Notes under the pieces: generated by a model
The model's input: only the letters and a program-made list of their open reading frames with translations
The model's database searches: none
What the model was told of the DNA's origin: nothing
Position numbers and translations under genes: made by a program
IMG/VR virus record: IMGVR_UViG_3300027833_000058
Span: 1 to 58,612 of that record
Strand: one strand, 5' to 3'
DNA length: 58,612 nt
From: a virus
Shown here: positions 5,194 through 58,179 of the stretch, in pieces
How positions within the stretch are numbered: the first letter of the stretch is position 1
Layout: the number at the start of each line of letters is the position of its first letter

Positions 5194-5763
5194 TTAGTAT
5201 TCCTTGATCTTTTTTTCGATTGCAGTCATGATCTTATTGTGAGTTTTACTTAAGTATCTATCTTTTCTAAGGCGAGCTAATGCGACTCTTGTTTGATCAG
5301 CATATCTTTTCTGAAATTCAGGAGGTCTTGTATCAATATCTTGTACGTTGGCAAGACGATCTGCAAGCTTAACTACTAATGCCCAGCTAGACATCTTAGC
5401 CATTTTACCAGCAATATATTCACCTTTACCGACGGCGTCTGATGCTGCTTTATCTGTAGTTAATTGCTGAACCATATCTGCTACTAACGCACCAAATTGT
5501 TTAACTAAATCGGAGTATGTGGTATCAGTATCTTCTAGTGTATCATGCAAATAAGCTGCTTGGATCATAGCAGTAAGGTTATTTGATTTTTTGAATTTAG
5601 CAACAAACCTAGCAACTTCTTTAGGATGTTCAATGTACTGCCCACCACTTTTTCTAGATTGGCCAGAATGCGCTGCCGTTGCAACTCTTAGTGCTTTGAG
5701 TGCACTTTCATTCATAGATTGATCGTTAACGCCTTCACTAATGAAAGTCTTAAAATTAAGCAT
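5194..5763 (-). CDS. SpoT/MESH1-type HD phosphohydrolase (ppGpp hydrolase-like)
   Basis: The protein has 189 residues. Residues about 26-140 form an HD domain of the RelA/SpoT hydrolase type. Seen are HSGQSRKSGGQYIEHP (R37, H46), YLHDTLEDT (H73, D74, E77, D78) and KLADRLANV (D135), so the metal- and substrate-binding set of (p)ppGpp 3'-pyrophosphohydrolases is complete. There is no synthetase, TGS or ACT domain, as in MESH1-like small alarmone hydrolases. The N-terminus MLNFKTFISEG fits the T4 capsid targeting sequence with an I-x-E|G cleavage site. It may therefore be packaged and injected to cancel the stringent response (inference). An HD enzyme acting on another nucleotide is the alternative. 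Confidence 0.85.
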   Translation of the reverse strand: MLNFKTFISEGVNDQSMNESALKALRVATAAHSGQSRKSGGQYIEHPKEVARFVAKFKKSNNLTAMIQAAYLHDTLEDTDTTYSDLVKQFGALVADMVQQLTTDKAASDAVGKGEYIAGKMAKMSSWALVVKLADRLANVQDIDTRPPEFQKRYADQTRVALARLRKDRYLSKTHNKIMTAIEKKIKEY

Positions 5764-7339
5764 TTGGAGTATCTTTTTTAAACTTATTAACTAACTCATC
5801 AGTGCCTTCTTCGCCAGCACCAGATTCTTTTTTCATAGCAATTAATTCAGAAGGTTTATGATTCATTGTCTTTTTACCAACACCAACCTTAACACTATCT
5901 TTAGTAACACTCAGAACTGTACCAATTCCGCCGTGCTTCATTTTAACTTTAGATCCTTCAGGAAACTGAGATGCCATTTGCGCAATTTGCTTGCGTAGAT
6001 TCTCATCTAGGTTCTCTTCTTTTTTAGCATTAAGCTTATCTCTTAAAGCTGCAATATCTTTTTTGATTGAATCTTTTTGTGGTTTAAAATGTTTGCTTAA
6101 AGGATTATCTTTCTTTACATCATTTGCTTCTTCAGTTGATTCTATTAAATCAAATATTTCTTGACTAACATCTTCAGTAACATGCTTTTTCTTAAACATT
6201 TTGAAACGTGCATCTAATTTTGGTTTATTATTTTTATCTAATAACATGTGTGGTTTTTTTAAAACTCTTTGATCTTTAATAGATGCTTCGTTAATATCTT
6301 CTTTCTTAACTACTGATGAAGAAGATCCACCGCTCATCATTGACTTACGACGCTCACGTTCTTTTTGTTTAACTACGGGTAATAATTTACGAGCAATTTG
6401 TTCTATACGCTTCTTATTAAGTTTAGAGATACGCTTATCAATTACTTCTTTTTCACCAGCCGATAGGTCAGCATAACGTCTGCTCTTTGAAAACTTTTTC
6501 TTAAATATATTAATAGCAGCTTTACGTGCTCTTCCTTTTAATACTTCTTGAGAAGCTGTTCTTTTCTTAGCTTTTTCTCTGCCACGTTTAATCTTAAAAC
6601 GGGCTTTCCTCATAGCAAGACCACGTTTACGTCTTTGCATACGGTTTAAAACTTCTGATATATCATTTGTTTCTTCTGTCATATTCATACCTTTACGTAC
6701 TGCTGTCATAATAGCTTTAGCAGATGATCTTAGCTTTTTAGGTAAACCTTTTGTAAACTGTAGAATATCGTTTTCAACGGCTAATGCTCTCATTTTAGAA
6801 GCAGACATTCCATCTACATTATCTGAGTCTGGATCTCTAGCACCAGCAGAAACTACTGCAATCGAATCAAAAGAATAATCTTTACCATTGTAATCATTTA
6901 ATAATTGTTTGAATTGATTAACTCTATCTGATCCAACAACCATTATAAGATTATCAAATTTCTCAACAGCTTGTAATACCTTAACGATAGTATTTGCCGG
7001 AGACTTTTGAACGATAGGACCAAATGCTTTTTGCGCAAACTTTACCTTATCGTTATACTGTAACGGGTTTTTCTTTTTGTCATTAGAATGAGTTAAGAAT
7101 ACCATAGGAGTTGCTTTATATTTTTTAGCAACCGTTATCATTCTTTGTACTAACAACTCGTGGCCAGCAGTAATAGGATTCATTCTTGCAAATGTAATTA
7201 CTACAGTACTACCTGCAGCTTCCTTTATTCCACGTCCACGATCATGATCGTCAAGCTCAGGTTCTATGTTGATAAATTTACTTCCATCAAACTCTTTAAA
7301 ACCTTTTACTTTTTTCTTTTTATCTTCTGGCTGGGCCAT
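5756..7339 (-). CDS. nucleotidylyltransferase-domain protein with long basic tail
   Basis: The protein has 527 residues. Residues about 44-210 form an HxGH-type nucleotidylyltransferase fold. FARMNPITAGH (TAGH at 57-60) is the nucleotide-binding signature, VGSDRVNQF follows in the middle, and MSASKMRAL corresponds to the ISxTxxR motif. This resembles NMN or pantetheine-phosphate adenylyltransferases, but the substrate cannot be read. Residues about 230-340 are extremely rich in Arg and Lys. A small beta segment near residue 455 (SKVKMKHGGIGTVLSV) looks like an SH3/KOW module. It overlaps the HD hydrolase gene by 8 bases and has a late promoter box at 7378-7385. Confidence 0.8.
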   Translation of the reverse strand: MAQPEDKKKKVKGFKEFDGSKFINIEPELDDHDRGRGIKEAAGSTVVITFARMNPITAGHELLVQRMITVAKKYKATPMVFLTHSNDKKKNPLQYNDKVKFAQKAFGPIVQKSPANTIVKVLQAVEKFDNLIMVVGSDRVNQFKQLLNDYNGKDYSFDSIAVVSAGARDPDSDNVDGMSASKMRALAVENDILQFTKGLPKKLRSSAKAIMTAVRKGMNMTEETNDISEVLNRMQRRKRGLAMRKARFKIKRGREKAKKRTASQEVLKGRARKAAINIFKKKFSKSRRYADLSAGEKEVIDKRISKLNKKRIEQIARKLLPVVKQKERERRKSMMSGGSSSSVVKKEDINEASIKDQRVLKKPHMLLDKNNKPKLDARFKMFKKKHVTEDVSQEIFDLIESTEEANDVKKDNPLSKHFKPQKDSIKKDIAALRDKLNAKKEENLDENLRKQIAQMASQFPEGSKVKMKHGGIGTVLSVTKDSVKVGVGKKTMNHKPSELIAMKKESGAGEEGTDELVNKFKKDTPNA

Positions 7340-19960: not shown

Positions 19961-20193
19961 TGTTTATTCTCCTTAATACTTGAAGTTGCTTTAACACTGC
20001 CACAATTGGCGCAATAAACAATTGTTGCAATAAACTGGTGTTTACCGATTTTAATGTTTCTTTTACCAGTTGATATATCTATTATATCACAACAGCCATT
20101 AACTGTCAACTGTTTATTTGAATTATTATTAACTCCTGATATCTTAGAGATAGGCTTAATTTCCAGTCCAAAATTACGTCTGTTAATCATCAT
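19957..20193 (-). CDS. 78-residue protein with Cys pairs
   Basis: It contains CCDI and a CANCGS pair that could form a small metal site. GAGGAAC precedes the start and the gene overlaps the end of the bilin reductase gene. Two adjacent ATGs (20193, 20190) are both possible. Function is unknown. Confidence 0.5.
   Translation of the reverse strand: MMINRRNFGLEIKPISKISGVNNNSNKQLTVNGCCDIIDISTGKRNIKIGKHQFIATIVYCANCGSVKATSSIKENKQ
20081..20109 (-). promoter_or_regulatory. early promoter for the 66-residue gene, 33 and 59
   Basis: AACAGTTGACA, 17 bp, TATAAT on the minus strand, a near-perfect sigma70 site inside the 78-residue gene. Confidence 0.8.
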
Positions 20194-20872
20194 CTAGTTC
20201 CTCAAATAATACATTGTTAACATACTTTTCTTTATCTTCTTCTGATATTCCCATTGCTAAAATAGAACGGTGTAAGTGTGGATTAAGCTTTTGATTTTGA
20301 CAATACTTGTTTAGTAATGGTTTTATATTACGATGACTATCGAGAGCATTTGTATCTATGTTATCTAGGTAGTGATCTACTAAGTCAGTTGTTACTGCGA
20401 TAAACTGATTAAGCTCTTCGTCAGTCTTAATGTTACCGACTGCAAGCATGTCTTTTGAAAATATCTCTTGAGCCCACGGTGGTAATTCTCTAGGTTTGTT
20501 CCATTCTAAGTCTTTAACTCGCCTTTCCATATATTCATTATACGGATGCGGAAAACCACGCAAAGGACTGTAATCCATAAACGAACCTGTAATCTTTTTA
20601 GGTCCTGCTACAATATCAAATCCAAGTATAGGCAATTCGTAGCTTGGATCTGGAAACACATTCACATGCATTAGCCACAAACCTTTACCATCTGCCGGTA
20701 CAATTGTTTTTAAATGAGCTTTTGATACTTGATCAGAGTGCCAAAAAGTATCATTCCAATCTTTAAATTTAAGATCATCTGTATACTTTTCGTTATCATA
20801 ACGAGTAAAATGTTTATCGAAGCTTGCTGAAATATAATCAGCATAACCGTTTAATCTATCCCATAGTTCCAT
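20183..20872 (-). CDS. ferredoxin-dependent bilin reductase (PcyX/PebS/PcyA family)
   Basis: The protein has 229 residues, the usual size. The family core is seen as HVNVFPDPSYELPILGFDIV followed by KKITGSFMDYSPL. D100 in MDYSP corresponds to the catalytic Asp105 of PcyA-type enzymes. The family reduces biliverdin IX-alpha to phycobilins with electrons from ferredoxin. Phage members (PebS, PcyX) make phycoerythrobilin; which product is made here cannot be read with certainty. It lies in the same operon as heme oxygenase, which supplies biliverdin. The host appears not to be a cyanobacterium, which favours the PcyX group. Confidence 0.88.
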   Translation of the reverse strand: MELWDRLNGYADYISASFDKHFTRYDNEKYTDDLKFKDWNDTFWHSDQVSKAHLKTIVPADGKGLWLMHVNVFPDPSYELPILGFDIVAGPKKITGSFMDYSPLRGFPHPYNEYMERRVKDLEWNKPRELPPWAQEIFSKDMLAVGNIKTDEELNQFIAVTTDLVDHYLDNIDTNALDSHRNIKPLLNKYCQNQKLNPHLHRSILAMGISEEDKEKYVNNVLFEELDDD

Positions 20873-21280: not shown

Positions 21281-21309
21281 ATTATACTATGTAATAGTAG
21301 CTTTGTCAA
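21281..21309 (-). promoter_or_regulatory. early promoter before the 62-residue gene and bilin reductase
   Basis: GGTTGACA, 17 bp, TATAAT on the minus strand. It overlaps the end of the heme oxygenase gene. Confidence 0.78.
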
Positions 21310-21856
21310 CCATTTCTTTTGAAAGTTCATCAAATAATTCTGAAGCAAAATCAAAACATATTTTTGCCTCATCAGCCATATCGTCTGATAACAATGTTCT
21401 AAACTGTTCAATAAGAACTTTAGTGTCACCTTCGAATTCGTACATCAAGCCATTGCCTGGAGTTTTCTTTTTGATAATTTGTCCACCGTGTAATTCACCA
21501 AAGTGGCGAACATACATATGCGCAAGTAAAGCTTCGTTATCATCAGCTTCTGCTAATCCATTAACATATGCTGCATACTTACTTACTGATGGAGGAAACA
21601 CGCCTGTAGGAGAGTAACCGAAGACTTCTTCTAGTTCTCTAATATCTTCAAAGATACGTCTATGACGTTTGATAGCGTGTAAGTTTGGGGGGATGATAGT
21701 GTGTCGTTCTAGTACTTCGTAATTCATGTACTGACAACATAGGAATTTGTGATACAAGGCTGTATCGATTTTTCCTGAAATAAGTTCTTTAGCAAATGCT
21801 CTTCGCTCAGCAGACTGATGGTGAGCCCAAGTTAATTCTTTCAATTTGTTTGACAT
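21287..21856 (-). CDS. heme oxygenase
   Basis: The protein has 189 residues. The proximal heme ligand is H13 in AHHQSAERRAF, matching the family HxxAE motif. The distal helix motif is GELHGGQIIKK. The enzyme opens heme to biliverdin, CO and iron. It is followed in the same unit by the bilin reductase, giving a heme-to-phycobilin route. It could also serve iron release alone. The gene starts just after the tmRNA coding piece and may be transcribed from the tmRNA promoter. Confidence 0.92.
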   Translation of the reverse strand: MSNKLKELTWAHHQSAERRAFAKELISGKIDTALYHKFLCCQYMNYEVLERHTIIPPNLHAIKRHRRIFEDIRELEEVFGYSPTGVFPPSVSKYAAYVNGLAEADDNEALLAHMYVRHFGELHGGQIIKKKTPGNGLMYEFEGDTKVLIEQFRTLLSDDMADEAKICFDFASELFDELSKEMVDKATIT

Positions 21857-21879
21857 AATATCCTCTTTAATAATTAAAG

Positions 21880-22175
21880 TGCCACTTTTCTGTTGCTAAG
21901 TAAGTGGCCAACTCCCTGTGATTATGCCGCTAGGGCTAATCCAGATGGTGCGAAATTTTCATTTGCATTTAGTTTAATTGATCTATGCGCGATCATCCGG
22001 TAAACTCCACTTCACTACAACACCTGTCGATCCTAGTTCAGCCCCATCAAAAACACACTACCCGCTTTATCAGATACGTTCCAGAATTAACTGGAATAGT
22101 GTGTTTTTGGTGGAGCTGTCGGGTACTGCCCCCGAGTCCAGCATGTTTTCACGTTGCTTCAACGTTTACAATATT
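21880..22175 (-). ncRNA. ssrA: circularly permuted, two-piece tmRNA (alphaproteobacterial type)
   Basis: On the minus strand the acceptor piece comes first: a T arm TCGGG-GGCAGTA-CCCGA, then CAGCTCCACCA ending at 22108. An intervening segment follows that folds through AAAACACACTA and TAGTGTGTTTT. The coding piece starts at 22045 with GGGGCTGAACTAGGATCGACAGG. GGGGCTG pairs with CAGCTCC in 7 bp including a G3-U70 wobble, the alanine identity pair. The tag frame is at 21966-21922 and reads ANENFAPSGLALAA then TAA. AGTTTA/TAAACT closes a stem just before the tag, and a pseudoknot (GTTG/CAAC with GCCACTT/AAGTGGC) follows it. The exact outer ends are approximate. Confidence 0.93.
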
Positions 22176-22210
22176 ATTTATATAATATACTAGTAACAGA
22201 CGCTTGTCAA
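22175..22210 (-). promoter_or_regulatory. combined early and late promoter of the tmRNA
   Basis: AACTGTTGACA, 17 bp, TATTAT on the minus strand (22182-22210). A perfect late box TATAAATA (22182-22175) overlaps the end of the -10. The gene can thus be read by both host sigma70 and gp55 polymerase. Confidence 0.78.
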
Positions 22211-30037: not shown

Positions 30038-30604
30038 CTATTTTGTTTTTGGGTCTGCATCTTTTTCTGTATTAGCGTCTTTTTCAATTTTATCAGCTTT
30101 TTTCTTAGCTTTGTCTCTTGCTAATTTATCTTCAAAGTCTTCAATAAAATCATTCATGTAATCTGCTGCTGTACTGAGATGAATATTAAGATCTTCACCA
30201 GAAGAGTATGTACCACCAGTAGTAATCATATGTTGAGAAGACTTGAAACGAATATACATTTGCTTCTTCTCTTTAGCGATTCTACGTAGGAAAGCATACC
30301 AGATAATTTGCGTAAAATATGCAAACGGATTCTGAGATTTTTCTTCATTAAAGTTCATTATATATAATAGACAGTTTTCGATACCGTCTGAGATCATATC
30401 TTCTTTATAAGAATATCCAGAGAAATTTGGTTTTGTTGCTAATCTTGTCGCTATCTGAAATATGCAAGTACCTATGTAATCTGGTACTCTTGGTCTTCCT
30501 TCACCTGCGTCTTCTGCTTCTCTGCAGAGTTGCTTGTATGCGACCAAAGCGTCAAGAAGGTCTCTGTTATTCACGTAATTGCGAGTGGCTCGTCTTTTTG
30601 CCAT
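30038..30604 (-). CDS. 55: late sigma factor, T4 gp55-like
   Basis: The start is placed at ATG 30604 (MAKRRATRNYVNN), because GGAGG of the ribosome site overlaps the longer start at 30619. The protein has 188 residues. DMISDGIENCLLYIMNFN and NPFAYFTQIIWYAFLRRIAKEKKQ correspond to sigma region 2 as in T4 gp55. The Lys-rich tail would reach the sliding clamp. It directs polymerase to TATAAATA boxes, at least ten of which occur in this window. Confidence 0.92.
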   Translation of the reverse strand: MAKRRATRNYVNNRDLLDALVAYKQLCREAEDAGEGRPRVPDYIGTCIFQIATRLATKPNFSGYSYKEDMISDGIENCLLYIMNFNEEKSQNPFAYFTQIIWYAFLRRIAKEKKQMYIRFKSSQHMITTGGTYSSGEDLNIHLSTAADYMNDFIEDFEDKLARDKAKKKADKIEKDANTEKDADPKTK

Positions 30605-30646
30605 TGGAAATACCTCCATTGATGTAGTTAAAATCTATTTAAATCT

Positions 30647-37741: not shown

Positions 37742-37742
<1 letters not shown>
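37620..37742 (+). CDS. 40-residue membrane peptide
   Basis: ATG 37620 has AAGGTGGAAATA upstream. The peptide is one hydrophobic helix (ILFWIFWGFISYLPYMIF) with an acidic tail. Its last stop base is the first base of the tRNA-Arg gene. Confidence 0.55.
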
Positions 37743-37818
<76 letters not shown>

Positions 37819-37976
37819 GAAAACCCTCACAAGGGGTTAATCTTATCTTCCGATTGTACACGGTTTAGATAAGTGGGTATATCATCTGGTACCGACGGAA
37901 ACCCAGGCGCTTCTATTGGCGGGACAATAGATAAGGGGAGGGGCAAGCTGCAGCAAACCCCTCCCTTGATTATTAA
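37819..37976 (+). ncRNA. unrecognised structured RNA between two tRNAs
   Basis: Successive stems can be drawn: AACCC/GGGTT, CTTATC/GATAAG, TGGGT/ACCCA, CTATTG/CAATAG and GGGAGGGG/CCCCTCCC, the last with GCTGCAGC in its loop. There is no open frame with a ribosome site. It is G+C-richer than its surroundings and would be released by tRNA processing. It matches no RNA class I know. Confidence 0.5.
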
Positions 37977-38054
37977 TGGATCGTAGCACAGCCTGGTAGT
38001 TGCGCCTGTCCCTGCGGCAGGAGGTCGTAGGTTCGAATCCTATCGATCCAGCCA
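37977..38054 (+). tRNA. atypical tRNA, probably Gln (anticodon CTG)
   Basis: Acceptor TGGATCG/CGATCCA with T1-A72 and G73, as in tRNA-Gln; T arm GTAGG-TTCGAAT-CCTAT; CCA is encoded. The anticodon arm CCTGT-CCCTGCG-GCAGG gives CTG but has C instead of T at position 33. The D stem needs a bulged T. The D loop AGCCTGGTA resembles tRNA-Pro. Identity is uncertain. Confidence 0.6.
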
Positions 38055-38076
38055 ATTAAATTTTAAGAGGAAAATT

Positions 38077-38343
38077 ATGAAAGATAATGACGTAGTAACA
38101 GTTGTAGCACCTACTGGCGAATATGTAGGTAGGATGCTTAAGTTTGATGAAACCGGTATTGTATTACAAAATCCCAGAATGATTACTTATTCAGAAGATG
38201 GTATGGGATTCGCAGCAGGTATTGCAGCAACAGGTAATCCAGATCCAAAAGAAGTAACTATTATGAATATTGTATTTGTTACTGAGTGTAATGTTGAGAT
38301 TGTTAAAGCTTGGCATCAAGCAACATCAGGAATTATCTTGTAG
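38077..38343 (+). CDS. 88-residue conserved phage protein, Sm-like beta fold suspected
   Basis: VVTVVAPTGEYVGRMLKFDETGIVLQNPRM has the alternating strands of an Sm/LSm-like barrel. GMGFAAGIAATG and VEIVKAWHQATSG follow, blocks I recall from marine myophage proteins of unknown function. AGAGGAAAAT precedes the start. It is flanked by tRNA genes. Confidence 0.6.
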   Translation: MKDNDVVTVVAPTGEYVGRMLKFDETGIVLQNPRMITYSEDGMGFAAGIAATGNPDPKEVTIMNIVFVTECNVEIVKAWHQATSGIIL

Positions 38344-38345
38344 TA

Positions 38346-38522
38346 ATGTGGGTTTTAGTTTTTATATATTTCTATGAAACCATGCCATTTGTAGAAAAAG
38401 TAACTGTTGCTGATACAATGGAAAATTGTTTTCTAGCAAGAGAAGCTCTTTCAATGGATGTTGGTAAAGGAGATGGATATTTTATTGAAGGCCAACAAGC
38501 AGTTTGTATTAAAATAGAATAG
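38346..38522 (+). CDS. 58-residue protein with N-terminal membrane segment
   Basis: I take ATG 38346, two bases after the previous stop. It starts MWVLVFIYFYETMPFVEK, a hydrophobic anchor, followed by a soluble part with two Cys. A longer frame from 38310 would overlap the previous gene. Function is unknown. Confidence 0.5.
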   Translation: MWVLVFIYFYETMPFVEKVTVADTMENCFLAREALSMDVGKGDGYFIEGQQAVCIKIE

Positions 38523-38523
38523 T

Positions 38524-38607
38524 GCCCGCGTGGTGGAATGGTAGACACTACAGACTTAAAATCTGTTGCTTTACAGCGTACCGGTTCGAGTCCGGTCGCG
38601 GGTACCA
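38524..38607 (+). tRNA. tRNA-Leu (anticodon TAA)
   Basis: Acceptor GCCCGCG/CGCGGGT, anticodon stem ACAGA/TCTGT around CTTAAAA, a long variable arm as in class II tRNAs, T arm ACCGG-TTCGAGT-CCGGT. CCA is encoded. Confidence 0.95.
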
Positions 38608-38612
38608 AAAGG

Positions 38613-38689
38613 ACTCCTCTAGCTCAACTGGTTAGAGCTGAGCGCTCATAACGCTTAGGTTACAGGTTCGAGTCCTGTGGGGAGTACCA
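38613..38689 (+). tRNA. tRNA-Met (anticodon CAT)
   Basis: Acceptor ACTCCTC/GGGGAGT, anticodon stem GAGCG/CGCTT around CTCATAA, T arm ACAGG-TTCGAGT-CCTGT. CCA is encoded. It lacks the three G-C pairs of initiator tRNA. Whether it is elongator Met or Ile2 (lysidine-modified) cannot be told. Confidence 0.92.
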
Positions 38690-50284: not shown

Positions 50285-52468
50285 ATGGCGATAAGAAGAC
50301 CAGTATATTTGTTTGCTGACCCTACGCTGACCCCAATAACATCAGATTTTTATGAATATAACGATAGCTTTATGGCAGATATTCTGGCATTTGCTTCTTA
50401 CGTTCACGCACAAGATCCTGGACCAAAACTAGAAGTTAATACTTCAAACGGCACTCAGATGCCGAATCAAGGGTTTACAGATACTTATTATATTGCAGGT
50501 GCATCAACAACTCGAACAGAAAGATTTTCTACTGCAGCTGAAACACCTAATGTTTCTATGTCAACTGACACATATAATAGAATACGTATTGTTAATAATC
50601 AAGGTACGCTTCCAACAACGGATGCAAACAACTTAGAATATCCTTTGTATCTAACTGATGATACACCTAGACAATTACGAGCAATGACTCGACAAGATTT
50701 TCTGGATACATTTGTTACACCTGCTTTAGATAATTGGCTTGGTACAGTTGCAAACGAACAAGGTGGTACTTATTTCTTAACAACATCTGCTAACCCAGCA
50801 AATGCTACTATTGTTGGATCTGTTCCTGCCGCAGTAAACTCTGTTGCTAACTTAAGTGCATATTCATCTGGTGGTATTGGAGAAGCGGTCAAGCAAACAA
50901 CTGATATAAATTATTGGCTTGCTAAAGTAGATTATTCAGAAGTTGATTTTGATCCTATGGAAGACTCATTACCAATGTATTTCGACGCCGGTACTGAAAC
51001 AATCAGAATGCATACTCTCGCCAGTTGGACTGCTTTATTAGGTCCTTTCTTAAGATACTATCTTGGAGGCGGTTCTCCAACTCATACTATTTCATATAAC
51101 ATTAATGGAAGTGGTACAACACAAGGCTCAATCTTTACAGATTCTCGCCGTACTCCAACAGGTACTGGTTATACTACACGATATGTTAATGTAGACGATT
51201 ATAGAACTCAAGAATTTCCTACTGGTACAGAATCTACGATAGCAGGAACTGAGAAAAGATTAAAAATGCAAATTGGAGTGACTGAATCTATTGCTCTACT
51301 TGGTTCGTCTGCTACTCCACAAGAGTTCGACAGCTCTGGTCCTATAGATGATGGTGGATGGAAAGCACAAAACGGATTTACATTTACATCTTCAGGTAAT
51401 ATCGAAGAAAAAGATTATTTTTATGACGGAGCACAACAAACATTTAGTACTAGCGAATGGTGCAATGTTACTCCAACGGGTAATTACTGGATAAGATTTA
51501 CTGATGACACTGCTGCAACATCTGGTGGAACATCTCGTGTCCCTGCTACAGGTCAGAATTTCACAGAAACTGGTTCAACTGCAACGTATTGGAGAATATT
51601 ACAAGATTTCTTTGGTGTTTGGACAGATCTTAGTATAGTTGATAACGGTACACAGGTTTACTATCAACGATTCACGGGTCCAGACCGTCAAACTAATGCG
51701 GCGGCGGTTACATCGAAATACGTAGGTGCTAAGCAGTACTTCAGAGGAACAGTCGGGTCGTCTTACTCTTACACTGTAAATTATGGTATTTACTATACAC
51801 AACAGACCTCAACACGTGTTACTGCTAATGCTGGCTCTTCGTTTGGTACTTGGCTTGCTATGACTTCTGATAGAAGCATTTACTGGAACGATACGTCGGC
51901 GGCAGGTGCTTATGCCAGTCGTTTTATGCAAGTTAAAGTAGAAATTTCTGATGACGCAGCCGGTTCTAATATTTTAGACACTGGATATTATCGAACATCC
52001 TGGCATGGTGACCAAGCTGTAGAAGTACAGTTACCTTCTGCAATGAGTGCGGTCGCAGAAAGCAACGGCTTAAGCGGTTCCTGTAGTGCTTATATAGAGT
52101 GGAATCCATCCGGCACTACCGGTACCGCATTGGTGACTGGACTTGGTAATCCAGGCAGCGGTACTGGAACAGTTAGTTGGCTTAGTGCCGGTGCTACTGC
52201 TAGTGATTACGAAGTAAGATTTAGTTATACAGAATCTTTAACTGGTGGTGGTAGTACAACAGGATATACAAACACCACAAGCAACACCGGAATACCTACA
52301 ACAGGAGCTTGGTATGCTGCAGAGTCTCAACATCAATGGAAAGTCATCGATTCAGGGACACCATCGACAAACAGTAGCATAATCGGAACTGTTCAAATTA
52401 GACAACAATCTACTGGTACAGTACTAGCAACATCAAATGTCTCGCTTTCAGCGAATAACGACCCGTAA
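50285..52468 (+). CDS. tail-fibre-like virion protein
   Basis: The protein has 727 residues, rich in Thr, Ser, Gly and Tyr, and low in Lys. Several similar beta-type modules follow an N-terminal region with LEYPLYLTDDTPRQLRAMTRQDFLDT. Repeated Gly/Thr/Ser motifs (GGGSTTGYTNTTSNTG) near the end are typical of fibre tips. GAGGAATAAAAA precedes the start. A host-recognition fibre is the likely role. Confidence 0.7.
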   Translation: MAIRRPVYLFADPTLTPITSDFYEYNDSFMADILAFASYVHAQDPGPKLEVNTSNGTQMPNQGFTDTYYIAGASTTRTERFSTAAETPNVSMSTDTYNRIRIVNNQGTLPTTDANNLEYPLYLTDDTPRQLRAMTRQDFLDTFVTPALDNWLGTVANEQGGTYFLTTSANPANATIVGSVPAAVNSVANLSAYSSGGIGEAVKQTTDINYWLAKVDYSEVDFDPMEDSLPMYFDAGTETIRMHTLASWTALLGPFLRYYLGGGSPTHTISYNINGSGTTQGSIFTDSRRTPTGTGYTTRYVNVDDYRTQEFPTGTESTIAGTEKRLKMQIGVTESIALLGSSATPQEFDSSGPIDDGGWKAQNGFTFTSSGNIEEKDYFYDGAQQTFSTSEWCNVTPTGNYWIRFTDDTAATSGGTSRVPATGQNFTETGSTATYWRILQDFFGVWTDLSIVDNGTQVYYQRFTGPDRQTNAAAVTSKYVGAKQYFRGTVGSSYSYTVNYGIYYTQQTSTRVTANAGSSFGTWLAMTSDRSIYWNDTSAAGAYASRFMQVKVEISDDAAGSNILDTGYYRTSWHGDQAVEVQLPSAMSAVAESNGLSGSCSAYIEWNPSGTTGTALVTGLGNPGSGTGTVSWLSAGATASDYEVRFSYTESLTGGGSTTGYTNTTSNTGIPTTGAWYAAESQHQWKVIDSGTPSTNSSIIGTVQIRQQSTGTVLATSNVSLSANNDP

Positions 52469-52483
52469 ACAAGGAAATGAATA

Positions 52484-53065
52484 ATGGCAATTTTTAGTGA
52501 CAAAATAATAAATGCGGTTTACGCAAATCCTGAATATACTTTGATTAAAATCAGATACGAAGATGATGATGGCAATGTTTGCCCTCACGTGATAGACGTT
52601 GATCCAAACCATTCTGACTTTAAGGCTTTAGAAGCTGAGGGTTGGAACACTGAAAAATTAATTGATGAAACCGCAGAATTTCTTCGTGCACAATCTGCTG
52701 CTTGGAATACAGAAGTTAACGCAGCGGCACAGCAAATTGCACAAGAAATGATTGGTACAACTGTGCTTATAAAAGAAAAAAGTGAATTGGACGTAAAAGT
52801 TAAAGACGCTAAGATTGCTCTTGATAAGAGTCAAGAAAAGCTTGATAAACTTGGCAGTCAAGAGTTTGACACGATTCAACGTTCCAAGAATGCTATTTTC
52901 CAATTCTTGTGGGATGCAGATGATAACAAAGATGAGCTATTTAAATTTAAGCTTTGGGCGTTAGAGCTAGACTTTGTTAAGAGCGCAGATAAGTCTGTTA
53001 AATCATCTCTACGTAAAGCAAAAACAATTATTGATGGTTTAGTAATTTTAAAATCCATTAAATAA
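52484..53065 (+). CDS. 193-residue coiled-coil protein, possible fibre assembly factor
   Basis: The N-terminal beta region (YTLIKIRYEDDDGNVCPHVI) is followed by long helical, coiled-coil-like sequence and a Lys-rich end. The position directly after the fibre gene is where assembly chaperones often lie. AAGGAAATGAATA precedes the start. Function is inferred from place only. Confidence 0.55.
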   Translation: MAIFSDKIINAVYANPEYTLIKIRYEDDDGNVCPHVIDVDPNHSDFKALEAEGWNTEKLIDETAEFLRAQSAAWNTEVNAAAQQIAQEMIGTTVLIKEKSELDVKVKDAKIALDKSQEKLDKLGSQEFDTIQRSKNAIFQFLWDADDNKDELFKFKLWALELDFVKSADKSVKSSLRKAKTIIDGLVILKSIK

Positions 53066-53066
53066 A

Positions 53067-54137
53067 ATGTGGTTTAATAATTATGAACGTGGTAAGCTCA
53101 CGTTAGATATAGAGCTTACCACAAATTGCAACGCGAAGTGCCCTCAATGTACTCGTACAGATACTGATAATAACCTTAATAGAATGTCGTGGCTAAAACT
53201 TAACCAAGTTTCAATCGACGATTTTAAGTCGTGGTTTACTCTGTCAGAAATCCAAAAAATTAAGCAATTCCATTTCTCAGGCACGTATGGTGATCCTGGA
53301 ATGTGCAAAGACTTGTACTTGATAGTAGAACATATTATTAATAATTCAAATGCGCATGTTTCTATTAACACCAACGGTGGTATGCGAGATGCTGACTTTT
53401 GGTTTGATTTGGGTGCTATTGGCCAAAAGCGTTTATCATTAATATTTGATGTTGATGGTATTAATCAGGAAATGCATCAGTTTTATAGAAGAGGTGTTAA
53501 ACTTGAAAAGGTATTAGAAAACCTCGAAGCTGCAGCAATGACCCCTGCTAAAATTGAAGTGCTTACTGTGTTATTTAAACATAACGAAGACTACCTTAAT
53601 GAAATACAAGAAATGTGCAGAGACTTAGGCGCAACTCACTTTGATAGTGTTGAAGGTAATAACTTTAAAGCTGGTCCAATATATAAATTTAATAATGAAC
53701 AAGGTAAGCCTGAACAACTAGAACAAATTATTAAAATAGAAAGCCATCAAGACGCAGCCAGACTTGACCGTAGAGTAAGAGATCATAGGCACGAAGCTGT
53801 TGCTAAAAATATTAAATGTGCGGCAGCCGAAAACTTTAATTTAAAAATTAATAGCGATGGAATGATTACACCGTGTTGTTATGTTTCAACAGCATTGGGA
53901 TGGGCATCAGGTATGCGAGACACTCATCCCATAGATGGTTATATAACTGATAGCGGAAATCATGGCGATGATATTAATCCGTTAATGAAAGAGTTTGTTG
54001 ATAGACGTGATGATTTTACATTAGGTAAAACTCAATTTGAAACAATTTTAAAAGATTCGTGGTTTTCTAAACAATTAGAAGAATCATTTAAATCTAGACC
54101 AGCGTTTGCTTGTAAAAAGGTGTGTAGTATATGTTAG
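53067..54137 (+). CDS. radical SAM protein with SPASM-type C-terminus (first of a tandem pair)
   Basis: The protein has 356 residues. CNAKCPQC near residue 20 is the CxxxCxxC [4Fe-4S]-SAM motif. HFSGTYGDPGM and INTNGGMRDADFWFDLG match radical SAM core strands. KCAAAENFNLKINSDGMITPCC and CKKVCSIC supply auxiliary-cluster Cys. Such SPASM enzymes modify peptides, proteins or sugars. It overlaps the next gene by 7 bases. Confidence 0.85.
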   Translation: MWFNNYERGKLTLDIELTTNCNAKCPQCTRTDTDNNLNRMSWLKLNQVSIDDFKSWFTLSEIQKIKQFHFSGTYGDPGMCKDLYLIVEHIINNSNAHVSINTNGGMRDADFWFDLGAIGQKRLSLIFDVDGINQEMHQFYRRGVKLEKVLENLEAAAMTPAKIEVLTVLFKHNEDYLNEIQEMCRDLGATHFDSVEGNNFKAGPIYKFNNEQGKPEQLEQIIKIESHQDAARLDRRVRDHRHEAVAKNIKCAAAENFNLKINSDGMITPCCYVSTALGWASGMRDTHPIDGYITDSGNHGDDINPLMKEFVDRRDDFTLGKTQFETILKDSWFSKQLEESFKSRPAFACKKVCSIC

Positions 54138-55255
54138 CAGCTTGGGACTCAAATGACATTAGTGTCTTTATGGATATATCAACATATTGTAATGCTGGGT
54201 GTCCACAATGTCATAGGACAGATAACAACGGCTTGGGTAAAGTTGATTGGTTACCATTAGTACAATGGACAATTGATCAATTTAAAACTGCGTTCTCTGC
54301 AAAAACTATGAGTCATATTAAAAGATTTCATTTCTGTGGTACGTGGGGCGATCCCATTATGGTTAAAGATATTTTAAAAATTGTTAAGTACATTATTCAA
54401 TATAGCAATGCTCGAGTATCATTTGATACTAACGGAAGTATGCGTAGCGAAGAATTTTGGTGGGACCTCGGAGTATCTGGTGGTGATAGATTAACGTTGC
54501 GCTTTGATGTTGACGGTATTAATCAAGAGATGCATCAACACTATCGTAGATTTACAGACTTAAGTAAAGTTCTTAATCATATGAGTATTGCTTCACAAAC
54601 AAATTGTAAAGTTGCTGCTCAAACTATTTTGTTTAAACATAACGAAGATTATAAAAATGAGATTAAATCTTTATGCGAAAAGCATGGATCTAAAGCTCAC
54701 GTATTTGTATCAAGCGACAGATTTAAACCCGGCCAAAACGCAACACAGCACACAGATGAAAACGGTAATGCTTTTATACTCGAAAAAGCCGGTACTAAAG
54801 TTATAGCAACGGACAATATAATACCTGTTAAATCAATTAAAGAACAACCAAAAAATATTGTAATACCTGTTAAGCCAGCACCAGTTAAAGAACAACCAAA
54901 GGTATCTGCAGCAGTAACTCAACCAAAACATGATATTGAGTGTGCTTGGGCTAAACCTCGTAATGAAATTATAGTAAGCTATGACGGTCAGGTGTTACCT
55001 TGTTGTTATCACCAAAACAATTATCATACAAATAGAAATTACTTTATAGACAGAGATCCATTATATACAGAATACGAAGATAATAAATTAAAATATAATG
55101 TTTTGCACGAACCTTTAAAAGATATTATAGATAGCAAATGGTGGAGCGGCACACTTGTTGATAGCATAGCAAACAATCCCATAAGAACTTGTATTGTAAA
55201 CTGTGCTAAGAAAACAGGTAATGCTAAAAACCAAAAAAGAGTACATATGAAATGA
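54131..55255 (+). CDS. radical SAM protein with SPASM-type C-terminus (second of the pair)
   Basis: The protein has 374 residues and is a clear paralogue of the previous one (CNAGCPQC; HFCGTWGDPIM; FDTNGSMRSEEFWWDLG; FDVDGINQEMHQ). It contains an extra Pro/Lys-rich linker near residues 230-275 with a duplicated IPVK...KEQPK unit. The auxiliary Cys are CAWAKPRNEIIVSYDGQVLPCC and CIVNCAKK. The two may form a heterodimer or act in sequence. Confidence 0.85.
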   Translation: MLAAWDSNDISVFMDISTYCNAGCPQCHRTDNNGLGKVDWLPLVQWTIDQFKTAFSAKTMSHIKRFHFCGTWGDPIMVKDILKIVKYIIQYSNARVSFDTNGSMRSEEFWWDLGVSGGDRLTLRFDVDGINQEMHQHYRRFTDLSKVLNHMSIASQTNCKVAAQTILFKHNEDYKNEIKSLCEKHGSKAHVFVSSDRFKPGQNATQHTDENGNAFILEKAGTKVIATDNIIPVKSIKEQPKNIVIPVKPAPVKEQPKVSAAVTQPKHDIECAWAKPRNEIIVSYDGQVLPCCYHQNNYHTNRNYFIDRDPLYTEYEDNKLKYNVLHEPLKDIIDSKWWSGTLVDSIANNPIRTCIVNCAKKTGNAKNQKRVHMK

Positions 55256-55872: not shown

Positions 55873-56479
55873 AGCAATAGAAGAAATATACGTTAACTCA
55901 AAGTATGATCCTAACGTAGATTTGTATCGTAGCTTTGATATAATCAATTCTGTAAACGAAAATCAAATCAAAAACAAAGAATGGTTAGTAGATACTTTGC
56001 TGCCATACATTGACCAAGATAAGCTCAAGCACGTAGTAATACTTGGCAGCTGGTACGGCTTGCTATCAGTAATGTTACAACCAAAACTATCACCTGATAT
56101 TGAAATACGTAATGTTGATTCCGACAAACAAACACTTATGTTTGGAAGAAAGTTAATACAAGATATGGATTTTAATAATATTGTATTTGAAGAGGATGAT
56201 GCTGGAGAATACTTTTTTGAAAAGTCTGATAAATTCCAACTCATTATAAACACTAGCTGCGAGCACATGGAACAAGATGATTTATCTCTTATAATATCTA
56301 TGAAACCTAGAGATACATTAATATGTTTTCAAGGCAATAACTATGATAGCATACAAAGCCATATTAATACACACGATAGTTTAGAAAGCTTTGTTGACTC
56401 ACTGGGGTTATATAAAGTTTATCACAGTGAAACTCTCGAGATGGAAAACTACAATAGATACATGGTGATTGGTATATGA
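55835..56479 (+). CDS. class I SAM-dependent methyltransferase-like protein
   Basis: The protein has 214 residues. HVVILGSWYGLLSVML is the Gly-rich SAM-binding motif I. IEIRNVDSDKQTL gives the acidic residue at the end of strand 2, and FQLIINTSCEHMEQDDL is motif IV. It overlaps the glycosyltransferase gene by 38 bases and the next gene by 4. It probably caps or methylates a sugar or protein. Confidence 0.7.
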   Translation: MTLKETLYKNALKAIEEIYVNSKYDPNVDLYRSFDIINSVNENQIKNKEWLVDTLLPYIDQDKLKHVVILGSWYGLLSVMLQPKLSPDIEIRNVDSDKQTLMFGRKLIQDMDFNNIVFEEDDAGEYFFEKSDKFQLIINTSCEHMEQDDLSLIISMKPRDTLICFQGNNYDSIQSHINTHDSLESFVDSLGLYKVYHSETLEMENYNRYMVIGI

Positions 56480-58179
56480 AAAGAATTATATTTACTATAT
56501 TTGATGATATTGATTCTGGCACAGATCGGTGGGGTGTTGCAGACGCTGCGAAACATATGCATAACGAGTACTTTGACAAACTTGTGGCAAACAAAGAAGA
56601 GTATGCTAATAGCTTAATTAATGTAGAATTTAAATTATATCATAACACAATGAATGATTTTGATGTTGCTGGCGAGTTAGAGTTTACTAAAGTTAATCTA
56701 TATAAACACCATCTTATGGCTAAGTTGGCTGAAGAATATGACGAAGTAATGTATGTTGATATGGATGTTCTTTTTAATACAGACGAAAACGTGTTTGACG
56801 AATTAGATTTAAATAACGGCATTCATATTATAGACCAGGACGACGCAGTTGAAAATAAAAATGTTGATGAAGTAATATTTAAAATGATTGGGCTGAGAAA
56901 TCCAACGTTAAAGTACCACATTACAAAAGATTTATTGAATGGTAAAGAAAATCATGTAATGAACACTGGTATTGTGATCGGTAAAAGCGAACATATCAAA
57001 CAAATTAAGTTTATTGAACGTCTTCCAGGTATTATCGAAAAGATTAATAAGCTTAAAGAATCACATACTGTTTATTTAAGAGCACATTATTATCCAAACA
57101 ATGAATCAGTATTTTCGTATATAATGGAAGAATATAATATACCATATGTTATTATGGATAAAGAATGGAATTATATTGTAGACCACTATCCAAACGAAAT
57201 AGATCCTAACGCAAAGATATATCACTTCATAAATAAAAAGTTTAATGCATTCTTTAAAGATAAGACTCAAGCAATCTTTTCTATATACATTGATATTCCC
57301 GATGAAGATTTAGACTCTCCTTCTGATTTTAAAGATGATGAGGTACCTAAAAGTAAACGCACAAAAGAAAGATTCGCAAAATATAAAGACCGATTGGAAA
57401 ACAACCATAAAGAATATGCTAATGCAATTAATGCTGAATATTTAATATTCGGTAGAGATAAACAATACGAAGATTTTAAATCTAGGTTTCCTATGTTATC
57501 CGAGTATGATGTTATTAATTTATATAAGATATACTTGTTAGATAAGTTAGTTAACGAATATGATTTAGTTATGTATATTGATATGGATGTTTATTTCAGA
57601 CGTAATATTAATGTATTCAATTACGTTCCATGCGAAAGCATTTGGTGTTGTATGTATGAAACACCGGAAGCTGCTGGTGTTATGTTTAATAGTAGTGCGT
57701 ATTTGAAATGGTACAGGCATGACTTTAGAAATCCAGAGTCTAAGTTTTGGAATGCACATGCTCTTTTAACTGAAGAAGATTTAGATACTAATGATTTAGT
57801 TATCTTTAATACCGGTGTTATAATGTCGAGTAAAAGAGTAATGGATAAGATTGATTACTTTTCTGATATTGACAAAGTTATTGAAACAATGACTGAAGTA
57901 AAAGAATACTCTATGTATACTGATAAAATTAGAGATTCATTTGGATATGATAACGAAACTATTATGTCATACAAGGTTTGTAAAAATGAAGTACCAATAT
58001 ATGATATGCCAAAATGGTGGCATCATAAAAATCATTATTGGAGCAAGAAATCTTTTGATCCAACTCACAGAGATTACACATTAGCAAAACACGAATATGA
58101 TTCGAAAACAAAACAAGCAAATTCTGTTATAATACATTTTATCTCTAAACATTTTGAGTTAGCTTTTGATGAAAACTAA
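56476..58179 (+). CDS. double-domain GT8-like glycosyltransferase
   Basis: The protein has 567 residues. Two homologous halves each carry the strand-DXD motif: YVDMDVLFN near residue 98 and YIDMDVYFR near 370, preceded by LAEEYDEVM and LVNEYDLVM. Each half also has a MNTGIVIG or FNTGVIMS segment. It may add two sugars or act as a polymerase. It ends the readable glycosylation block. Confidence 0.78.
   Translation: MKRIIFTIFDDIDSGTDRWGVADAAKHMHNEYFDKLVANKEEYANSLINVEFKLYHNTMNDFDVAGELEFTKVNLYKHHLMAKLAEEYDEVMYVDMDVLFNTDENVFDELDLNNGIHIIDQDDAVENKNVDEVIFKMIGLRNPTLKYHITKDLLNGKENHVMNTGIVIGKSEHIKQIKFIERLPGIIEKINKLKESHTVYLRAHYYPNNESVFSYIMEEYNIPYVIMDKEWNYIVDHYPNEIDPNAKIYHFINKKFNAFFKDKTQAIFSIYIDIPDEDLDSPSDFKDDEVPKSKRTKERFAKYKDRLENNHKEYANAINAEYLIFGRDKQYEDFKSRFPMLSEYDVINLYKIYLLDKLVNEYDLVMYIDMDVYFRRNINVFNYVPCESIWCCMYETPEAAGVMFNSSAYLKWYRHDFRNPESKFWNAHALLTEEDLDTNDLVIFNTGVIMSSKRVMDKIDYFSDIDKVIETMTEVKEYSMYTDKIRDSFGYDNETIMSYKVCKNEVPIYDMPKWWHHKNHYWSKKSFDPTHRDYTLAKHEYDSKTKQANSVIIHFISKHFELAFDEN

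Follow-up and report, generated by a model that had tools for sequence, protein, structure and literature searches.

Phage-borne two-piece tmRNA is already known, a point that the preliminary description of this locus, made from the sequence letters, had missed. The paper on Methylophilales phage Melnitz (2022) suggests a two-piece form for 53 of 133 unique phage tmRNAs from isolate genomes (PMC9004378), and the tmRNA database paper gives 79 phage sequences (PMC11915505). Melnitz (MZ577095) is, like the phage analysed here, a T4-like marine phage with an alpha-type permuted tmRNA and a long hairpin in the intervening segment (IVS), and its promoter, TTGACA-N17-TATAAATA, likewise has both an early and a late box. 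It differs in a reported glutamine riboswitch (PMC9004378) and in its IVS, which is 142 nt long and holds an open reading frame (ORF), as against 62 nt with two hairpins and no ORF here. The chromosomal two-piece tmRNA of alphaproteobacteria (RF01849) has the same permuted order, G3-U70 pair, encoded CCA and short tag frame ending AA, but among the matches listed its IVS is short, its stem is little extended, and TATAAATA is absent.

Two other described arrangements place additional sequence inside a tmRNA gene. Group I intron tmRNAs with homing endonuclease genes (PMC11915505) also have a removable segment able to carry a protein gene; the phage segment, by contrast, is the spacer of a permuted gene, lies at the acceptor stem and is removed by maturation rather than by self-splicing, and the phage IVS ORFs (about 27-77 aa) are not of LAGLIDADG size. 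For IVSs the accessible text of that paper records one nested tRNA-Ala and one repetitive element, with no protein gene mentioned there. The permuted tmRNA of GCA-2688965, which has a tRNA-Ala gene in its IVS (PMC11915505), likewise holds a second gene within the segment, but this is an RNA gene from a single nominally archaeal MAG, whereas the phage cargo is protein-coding and recurrent. Within the open-access literature, no description was found of a merged early/late promoter, a phage-biased long helix, protein genes in the IVS, or exchange of the IVS as a cassette. The locus reported here is a further phage tmRNA, in which the promoter and the long helix can be read directly and IVS exchange emerges once relatives are compared. 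That the intervening loop is its unusual part had also been missed in the preliminary description.

The tmRNA gene and its phage

The window, meaning the whole stretch of 58,612 nt that was analysed (IMG/VR record IMGVR_UViG_3300027833_000058, a linear virus record in the IMG/VR classification), represents part of the genome of a T4-like marine phage that infects bacteria. It encodes gp43 DNA polymerase (about 44% identical to its best known relatives, which are mostly from cyanophages), a gp41-type helicase, UvsX, UvsY, a gp32-type SSB, topoisomerase II subunits, an SbcCD-like pair, a gp19-type tail tube and the late sigma factor gp55; gp43, gp55, UvsX, UvsY and topoisomerase II bear out the phage origin that had been proposed. 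The window also contains four phage tRNA genes at 37742-38689 (Arg-TCT, Gln-CTG, Leu-TAA and Met-CAT), two radical SAM domain genes side by side on the plus strand at 53067-55255, adjoining large ORFs with no PHROG match (50285-53065, 56476-58179), and a cytidyltransferase-type protein (5756-7339) that adjoins a predicted metal-dependent phosphohydrolase (5194-5763).

On the minus strand, 22210-21878 encodes a complete two-piece tmRNA in circularly permuted order (Table 1), and ARAGORN reports a permuted tmRNA there, on that strand, with the tag ANENFAPSGLALAA. The covariance search gives full-length matches to two Rfam models, RF01849 alpha_tmRNA (22225-21878, 115 bits against a cut-off of 50, E 1e-30) and RF04321 tmRNA_permuted (22169-21922, 107.9 bits against a cut-off of 47). 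A chance match to a tmRNA model is excluded at E ~1e-30 versus Rfam. The assignment to the alphaproteobacterial permuted type thus stands, as do the coordinates first given, the Rfam match reaching slightly past both ends. Alanine identity is likewise upheld, with the G3-U70 pair formed by G22043 and U22114 and with an encoded CCA; all seven acceptor pairs close, the third being this G-U, and the tag is complete and ends in ALAA. The mature ends and the limits of the IVS are deduced from base pairing, here and in relatives. No group I intron is present in the T-loop, the T-arm of the window being uninterrupted and without an intron family match in Rfam; a relaxed Rfam search of the tmRNA locus returned, beyond the tmRNA, only chance matches to microRNA precursors.

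Table 1. Features of the tmRNA locus and associated genes in the window
Feature	Position	Strand	Basis or remark
Early (sigma70-type) promoter TTGACA-N17-TATTAT	22182..22210	-	11/12 consensus matches
sigma70 boxes	TTGACA 22210-22205, TATTAT 22187-22182	-	17-nt spacer
T4-type late promoter box TATAAATA	22175..22182	-	overlaps TATTAT by one base
Acceptor piece	22108..22169	-	5' end as in Rfam match; ARAGORN, Rfam, direct reading
T-arm TCGGG-GGCAGTA-CCCGA	22135-22119	-	direct reading
3' acceptor strand CAGCTCC	22118-22112	-	then A73 and encoded CCA 22110-22108, last A 22108
Intervening segment (IVS), 62 nt	22046..22107	-	no ORF; fold z-score -5.8; covariation
Coding piece (5' acceptor strand, tag frame, 3' region)	21878..22045	-	ARAGORN, Rfam, direct reading
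5' acceptor strand GGGGCTG	22045-22039	-	G3 at 22043
Tag reading frame ANENFAPSGLALAA	21922..21966	-	ARAGORN; resume codon GCA, stop TAA
189-aa neighbour gene downstream of tmRNA	21287..21856	-	phrog_17328; no assigned function
gp55-type late sigma factor gene	30038..30619	-	phrog_234, E 2e-59

The 189-aa neighbour gene is a marker of a conserved tmRNA locus, and IMG/VR contigs with closely related copies of it exist. In many of the related contigs the tmRNA lies directly upstream of this gene or about 0.4-1.6 kb further up. The tmRNA is not essential, since several close relatives have none at the locus.

A promoter with early and late boxes

An early promoter and a T4-type late box stand before the acceptor piece. 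Scans of the collections required an exact T-arm/acceptor or coding-piece pattern, and copies were counted among the matches listed, the IMG/VR contigs of the phage set possibly including some prophage or host. On that footing, TATAAATA falls in the 55-nt interval of the expected start in 105 of 187 non-redundant phage copies; three control intervals taken further upstream lack it throughout, and so do all 98 host copies. TTGACA is found in 98 of the same 187 versus 4-7 in control intervals. Both boxes are position-locked in the phage copies listed, TATAAATA mostly 74-76 nt and TTGACA mostly 97-98 nt before the CCA end, and in most of them the late box falls where the sigma70 -10 element would lie, about 17 bases past TTGACA, to give a merged promoter. 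The window differs from most phages in having its sigma70 -10 (TATTAT) and its late box in separate registers. The late box would be recognised by the gp55 that the window encodes, and the gp55 gene, together with the comparison of phage and host copies, backs the early claim of a promoter combining early and late elements.

On a rival account TATAAATA is nothing more than the -10 element of a sigma70 promoter in an AT-rich region, and the tmRNA an early transcript only. The authors of the Melnitz paper describe their promoter as early (PMC9004378), and because the box coincides with the -10 position in most phages, the sequence by itself does not prove late use. The separate registers in the window speak against this account, as do contig L209, with a TATAAATA box but no TTGACA, and contigs L387, L378, L311 and L290, where TATAAT is followed by a separate TATAAATA. 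Furthermore, gp55 is present, and 10 of the 16 TATAAATA boxes in the window have an ORF on the same strand starting within 100 nt downstream (random placement gives a mean of 0.9 and a maximum of 6 in 2000 trials), the ORFs including gp19- and gp5-type late genes. Expression restricted to the early phase is accordingly unlikely in our judgment; late use is well supported by the sequence, if not proven, and the promoter sequence suggests that the tmRNA may be used through the whole infection cycle. Just downstream of the tmRNA region, a gene matching a ferredoxin oxidoreductase PHROG (phrog_7278, 20183-20872) has upstream of it a perfect sigma70 consensus promoter at 21309-21281.

The intervening segment: helix, exchange and micro-genes

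In the window the acceptor stem runs on through A73 and C75-A76 into the IVS (z -5.8), so that acceptor stem and IVS form a helix of about 22 pairs in which the CCA is buried; two small hairpins complete the IVS. With its CCA buried in this way, the precursor might mature less readily rather than more. Across 159 distinct phage sequences among the matches listed, the acceptor pairs are kept 7 of 7 with compensatory changes, and the added pairs are kept as well, with many compensatory types, the C74 position being unpaired in 98%. The 15 sequences with an IVS of the window's type have two conserved hairpins, with CUGAUAAA in the second loop, and a helix in which 99.5% of cells are paired and 12 pairs show two-sided changes, a covariation matched by 0 of 500 shuffles and lost when the alignment is slid as a control. 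In the whole set of phage copies listed, the helix likewise exceeds that of shuffled IVSs. Among same-pattern copies listed, the median phage IVS is 77 nt with 13 added pairs, against 28 nt and 1 pair in alphaproteobacteria, and at least 10 added pairs are found in 76% of phage versus 27% of alphaproteobacterial copies (p ~1e-15); the difference is a matter of degree, as some hosts also have an extended stem. Hairpins resembling a T-arm (TTCRANY), noticed on visual inspection in the IVSs of several loci, were considered as nested tRNAs or tRNA mimics and rejected: ARAGORN finds no tRNA, and the strict motif occurs in 1 of 144 IVSs listed (shuffle mean 0.2, maximum 2).

Comparison of relatives indicates that they exchange the IVS as a cassette, and its versions range from 25-nt loops through structured inserts (as in the window) to micro-genes (in relatives including Melnitz). 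Within the clade of the window, contigs L206 and L125 are 99-100% identical in the flanks and both exons but 52% in the IVS (82 vs 69 nt). Contigs L298, with an ORF in a 117-nt IVS, and L355, with 25 nt, are about 95% identical around the segment. Among the matches listed, exons agree at 90% or more in 248 pairs, 122 of which are less than 50% identical in the IVS. The converse also occurs: L249 and L292 have an identical 94-nt IVS with exons 74% identical, and L108 and L111 a 121-nt IVS 98% identical with exons 72% identical.

Taking as qualifying an ORF with an ATG start, at least 25 codons and a ribosome-binding-site motif, 20 of the 67 phage IVSs that reach 85 nt or more in the thinned set hold one among the matches listed, compared with 1.1 in dinucleotide shuffles (maximum 5) and 2 in the reverse complement; roughly 70% of the long phage IVSs listed have none. 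The window itself has no micro-gene, its IVS being without an ORF, and no homologue of six micro-proteins is found anywhere in it. Family 1, a micro-ORF of about 43 aa beginning DWHWISWFKGTPFQWG, occurs in at least 56 contigs, in 38 of which a strict test places it in the IVS; most of the other 18 prove on reading to lie in an IVS as well, and differ in having variant exons, a longer IVS or a contig end. At least five contigs (L519, L538, L550, L556 and L570) carry it outside an intact tmRNA. One of these, L556, has at about 1940-2180 an IVS-like cassette with the micro-ORF, flanked by a direct repeat ATGATGGAAACCTA that could be an insertion footprint.

Substitution patterns point to purifying selection on the micro-genes in the families tested. 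For family 1, pN/pS is 0.22 overall and 0.05-0.17 within groups, versus 1.1-1.4, with stops, in the other two frames; it is 0.25 for a 45-aa pair (L030/L083). The signal is weaker in family 2 (...PKYLSG), with pN/pS 0.46 on four sequences. In searches of Pfam and PHROGs, the only micro-protein that clearly passes is a 63-aa IVS ORF of L082, which matches DUF6356 (E 5e-12) and whose contig has an endolysin gene adjoining; tblastn against isolate phages yields nothing convincing for families 1 and 2, and for the Melnitz ORF only Melnitz itself. The AlphaFold model of family 1 has a pLDDT of 58. The micro-ORFs of L052 and L597-L601 have a common C-terminal end (YEDLC) and different N-termini, suggesting shuffling between micro-genes.

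In Melnitz (L581, MZ577095.1) an unannotated ORF with a ribosome-binding site lies inside the tmRNA IVS at about 1054-1176 (MFKWLSKTRLVVITRDYFRERNRKADAKIPKYLSG..., MFKWLSKTRLVVITRDYF...KIPKYLSG), and its C-terminus is common to family 2. The record covers it with the tmRNA feature only, an example of how standard annotation conceals IVS genes. All 18 of its IMG/VR relatives listed lie in a tmRNA IVS. In 19 distinct alleles family 1 ends at the TAG that belongs to the tmRNA coding piece, and in 7 of 10 Melnitz-type alleles the frame continues into that piece; a cut at the start of the coding piece would therefore leave a nonstop message.

Proposed function and its alternatives

The locus probably yields a working rescue RNA in two pieces, owned by the phage and using host SmpB, with the excised spacer as a tolerated slot for cargo, since anything inside the hairpin would be removed. 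RNase P would cut at 22045 to generate the start of the coding piece, and an RNase III-type cut of the long helix, followed by exonucleases, plausibly exposes the CCA at 22108; host enzymes would in this way trim the hairpin out of the precursor. Alanyl-tRNA synthetase would charge the product with alanine, host SmpB would take it to stalled ribosomes, and tagged peptides would then be broken down, in the early as well as the late phase of infection. Were the gene instead a passive capture from a host, picked up for instance through imprecise excision at an ssrA gene used for integration, it would have no function for the phage. Host ssrA genes are integration sites, capture is discussed by the Melnitz authors (PMC9004378), and some relatives have no tmRNA, but such an origin is very improbable given the compensated acceptor pairs (7 of 7 in the 159 distinct phage sequences listed), the intact tag, a phage-type promoter that is absent from the 98 host copies listed, and exons at most 74% identical to sampled hosts among the matches listed. 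A further proposal is a decoy or reprogramming tmRNA, which would compete with host tmRNA for SmpB and ribosomes or retag host proteins for a breakdown that feeds phage synthesis. Neither the window nor any of 17 tmRNA phages, of which four are isolates, yielded an SmpB gene, and a phage without its own SmpB must compete for that of the host; the phage tag is unlike the sampled host tags among the matches listed, amino-acid recycling has been proposed for Melnitz (PMC9004378), and the tag-less tmRNA of phage DS6A inhibits E. coli tmRNA (cited in the accessible text of PMC11915505). A pure decoy would, however, not need the full tag with its ALAA end, the stop codon and the alanine identity, all of which are kept, and we consider this proposal distinctly unlikely.

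The contents of the IVS call for a separate reading, which we put forward tentatively as one that may quite possibly hold for T4-like marine phages. The segment excised from the permuted pre-tmRNA would be an exchangeable, gene-bearing cassette; the helix of about 22 pairs, made of acceptor stem and IVS, would ensure removal of its contents; conserved micro-genes would be loaded into it; and with the stop of many alleles lying in the coding piece, maturation would make a nonstop mRNA and so tie micro-protein output to tmRNA processing. That the nonstop conversion matters is what we infer from the position of the stops. It is conceivable, if somewhat doubtful, that the IVS is instead only a drifting spacer, its hairpin a by-product of its place between the acceptor strands and its micro-ORFs chance or selfish passengers unlinked to the tmRNA. 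The long IVSs listed that lack a qualifying ORF (about 70%), the empty IVS of the window and the five or more contigs with family 1 outside an intact tmRNA all fit a drifting spacer. Chance ORFs would not account for 20 of 67 long IVSs listed against 1.1 in shuffles, nor drift for pN/pS of 0.05-0.25 in two families beside 1.1-1.4 off frame, for an IVS ORF belonging to DUF6356, or for a helix that covaries and exceeds that of shuffled IVSs. The micro-genes may nonetheless be passengers.

The host was to be named from the tag, by comparison with marine alphaproteobacteria, and this did not succeed: none of 289 genomes in the class of the Pelagibacteraceae locus contains the ANENFAP pattern, and the tag has no match among the 102 host copies listed. 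With the best host exon identity listed at 74%, assignment by tag or exons was dropped.

The message of E. coli ArfA, a small ORF, can lose its stop codon by RNA cleavage, which ties the product to tmRNA. An ArfA-like arrangement is seen in some IVS ORFs of relatives only; no sequence relation to ArfA is shown, and in the phage it is maturation of the tmRNA that would do the cutting. Melnitz is in culture, which makes the role of the micro-protein and the question of the nonstop message directly testable. The results from the window suggest phage-type early/late control of ribosome rescue in lytic marine phages, and the spacer of two-piece tmRNA, usually regarded as waste, emerges as a hypervariable site that carries real genes in relatives. 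The permuted tmRNA of the Sinorhizobium jumbo phage Phosso (L583, PV764938.1) has an IVS of 410 nt, unannotated in its record.
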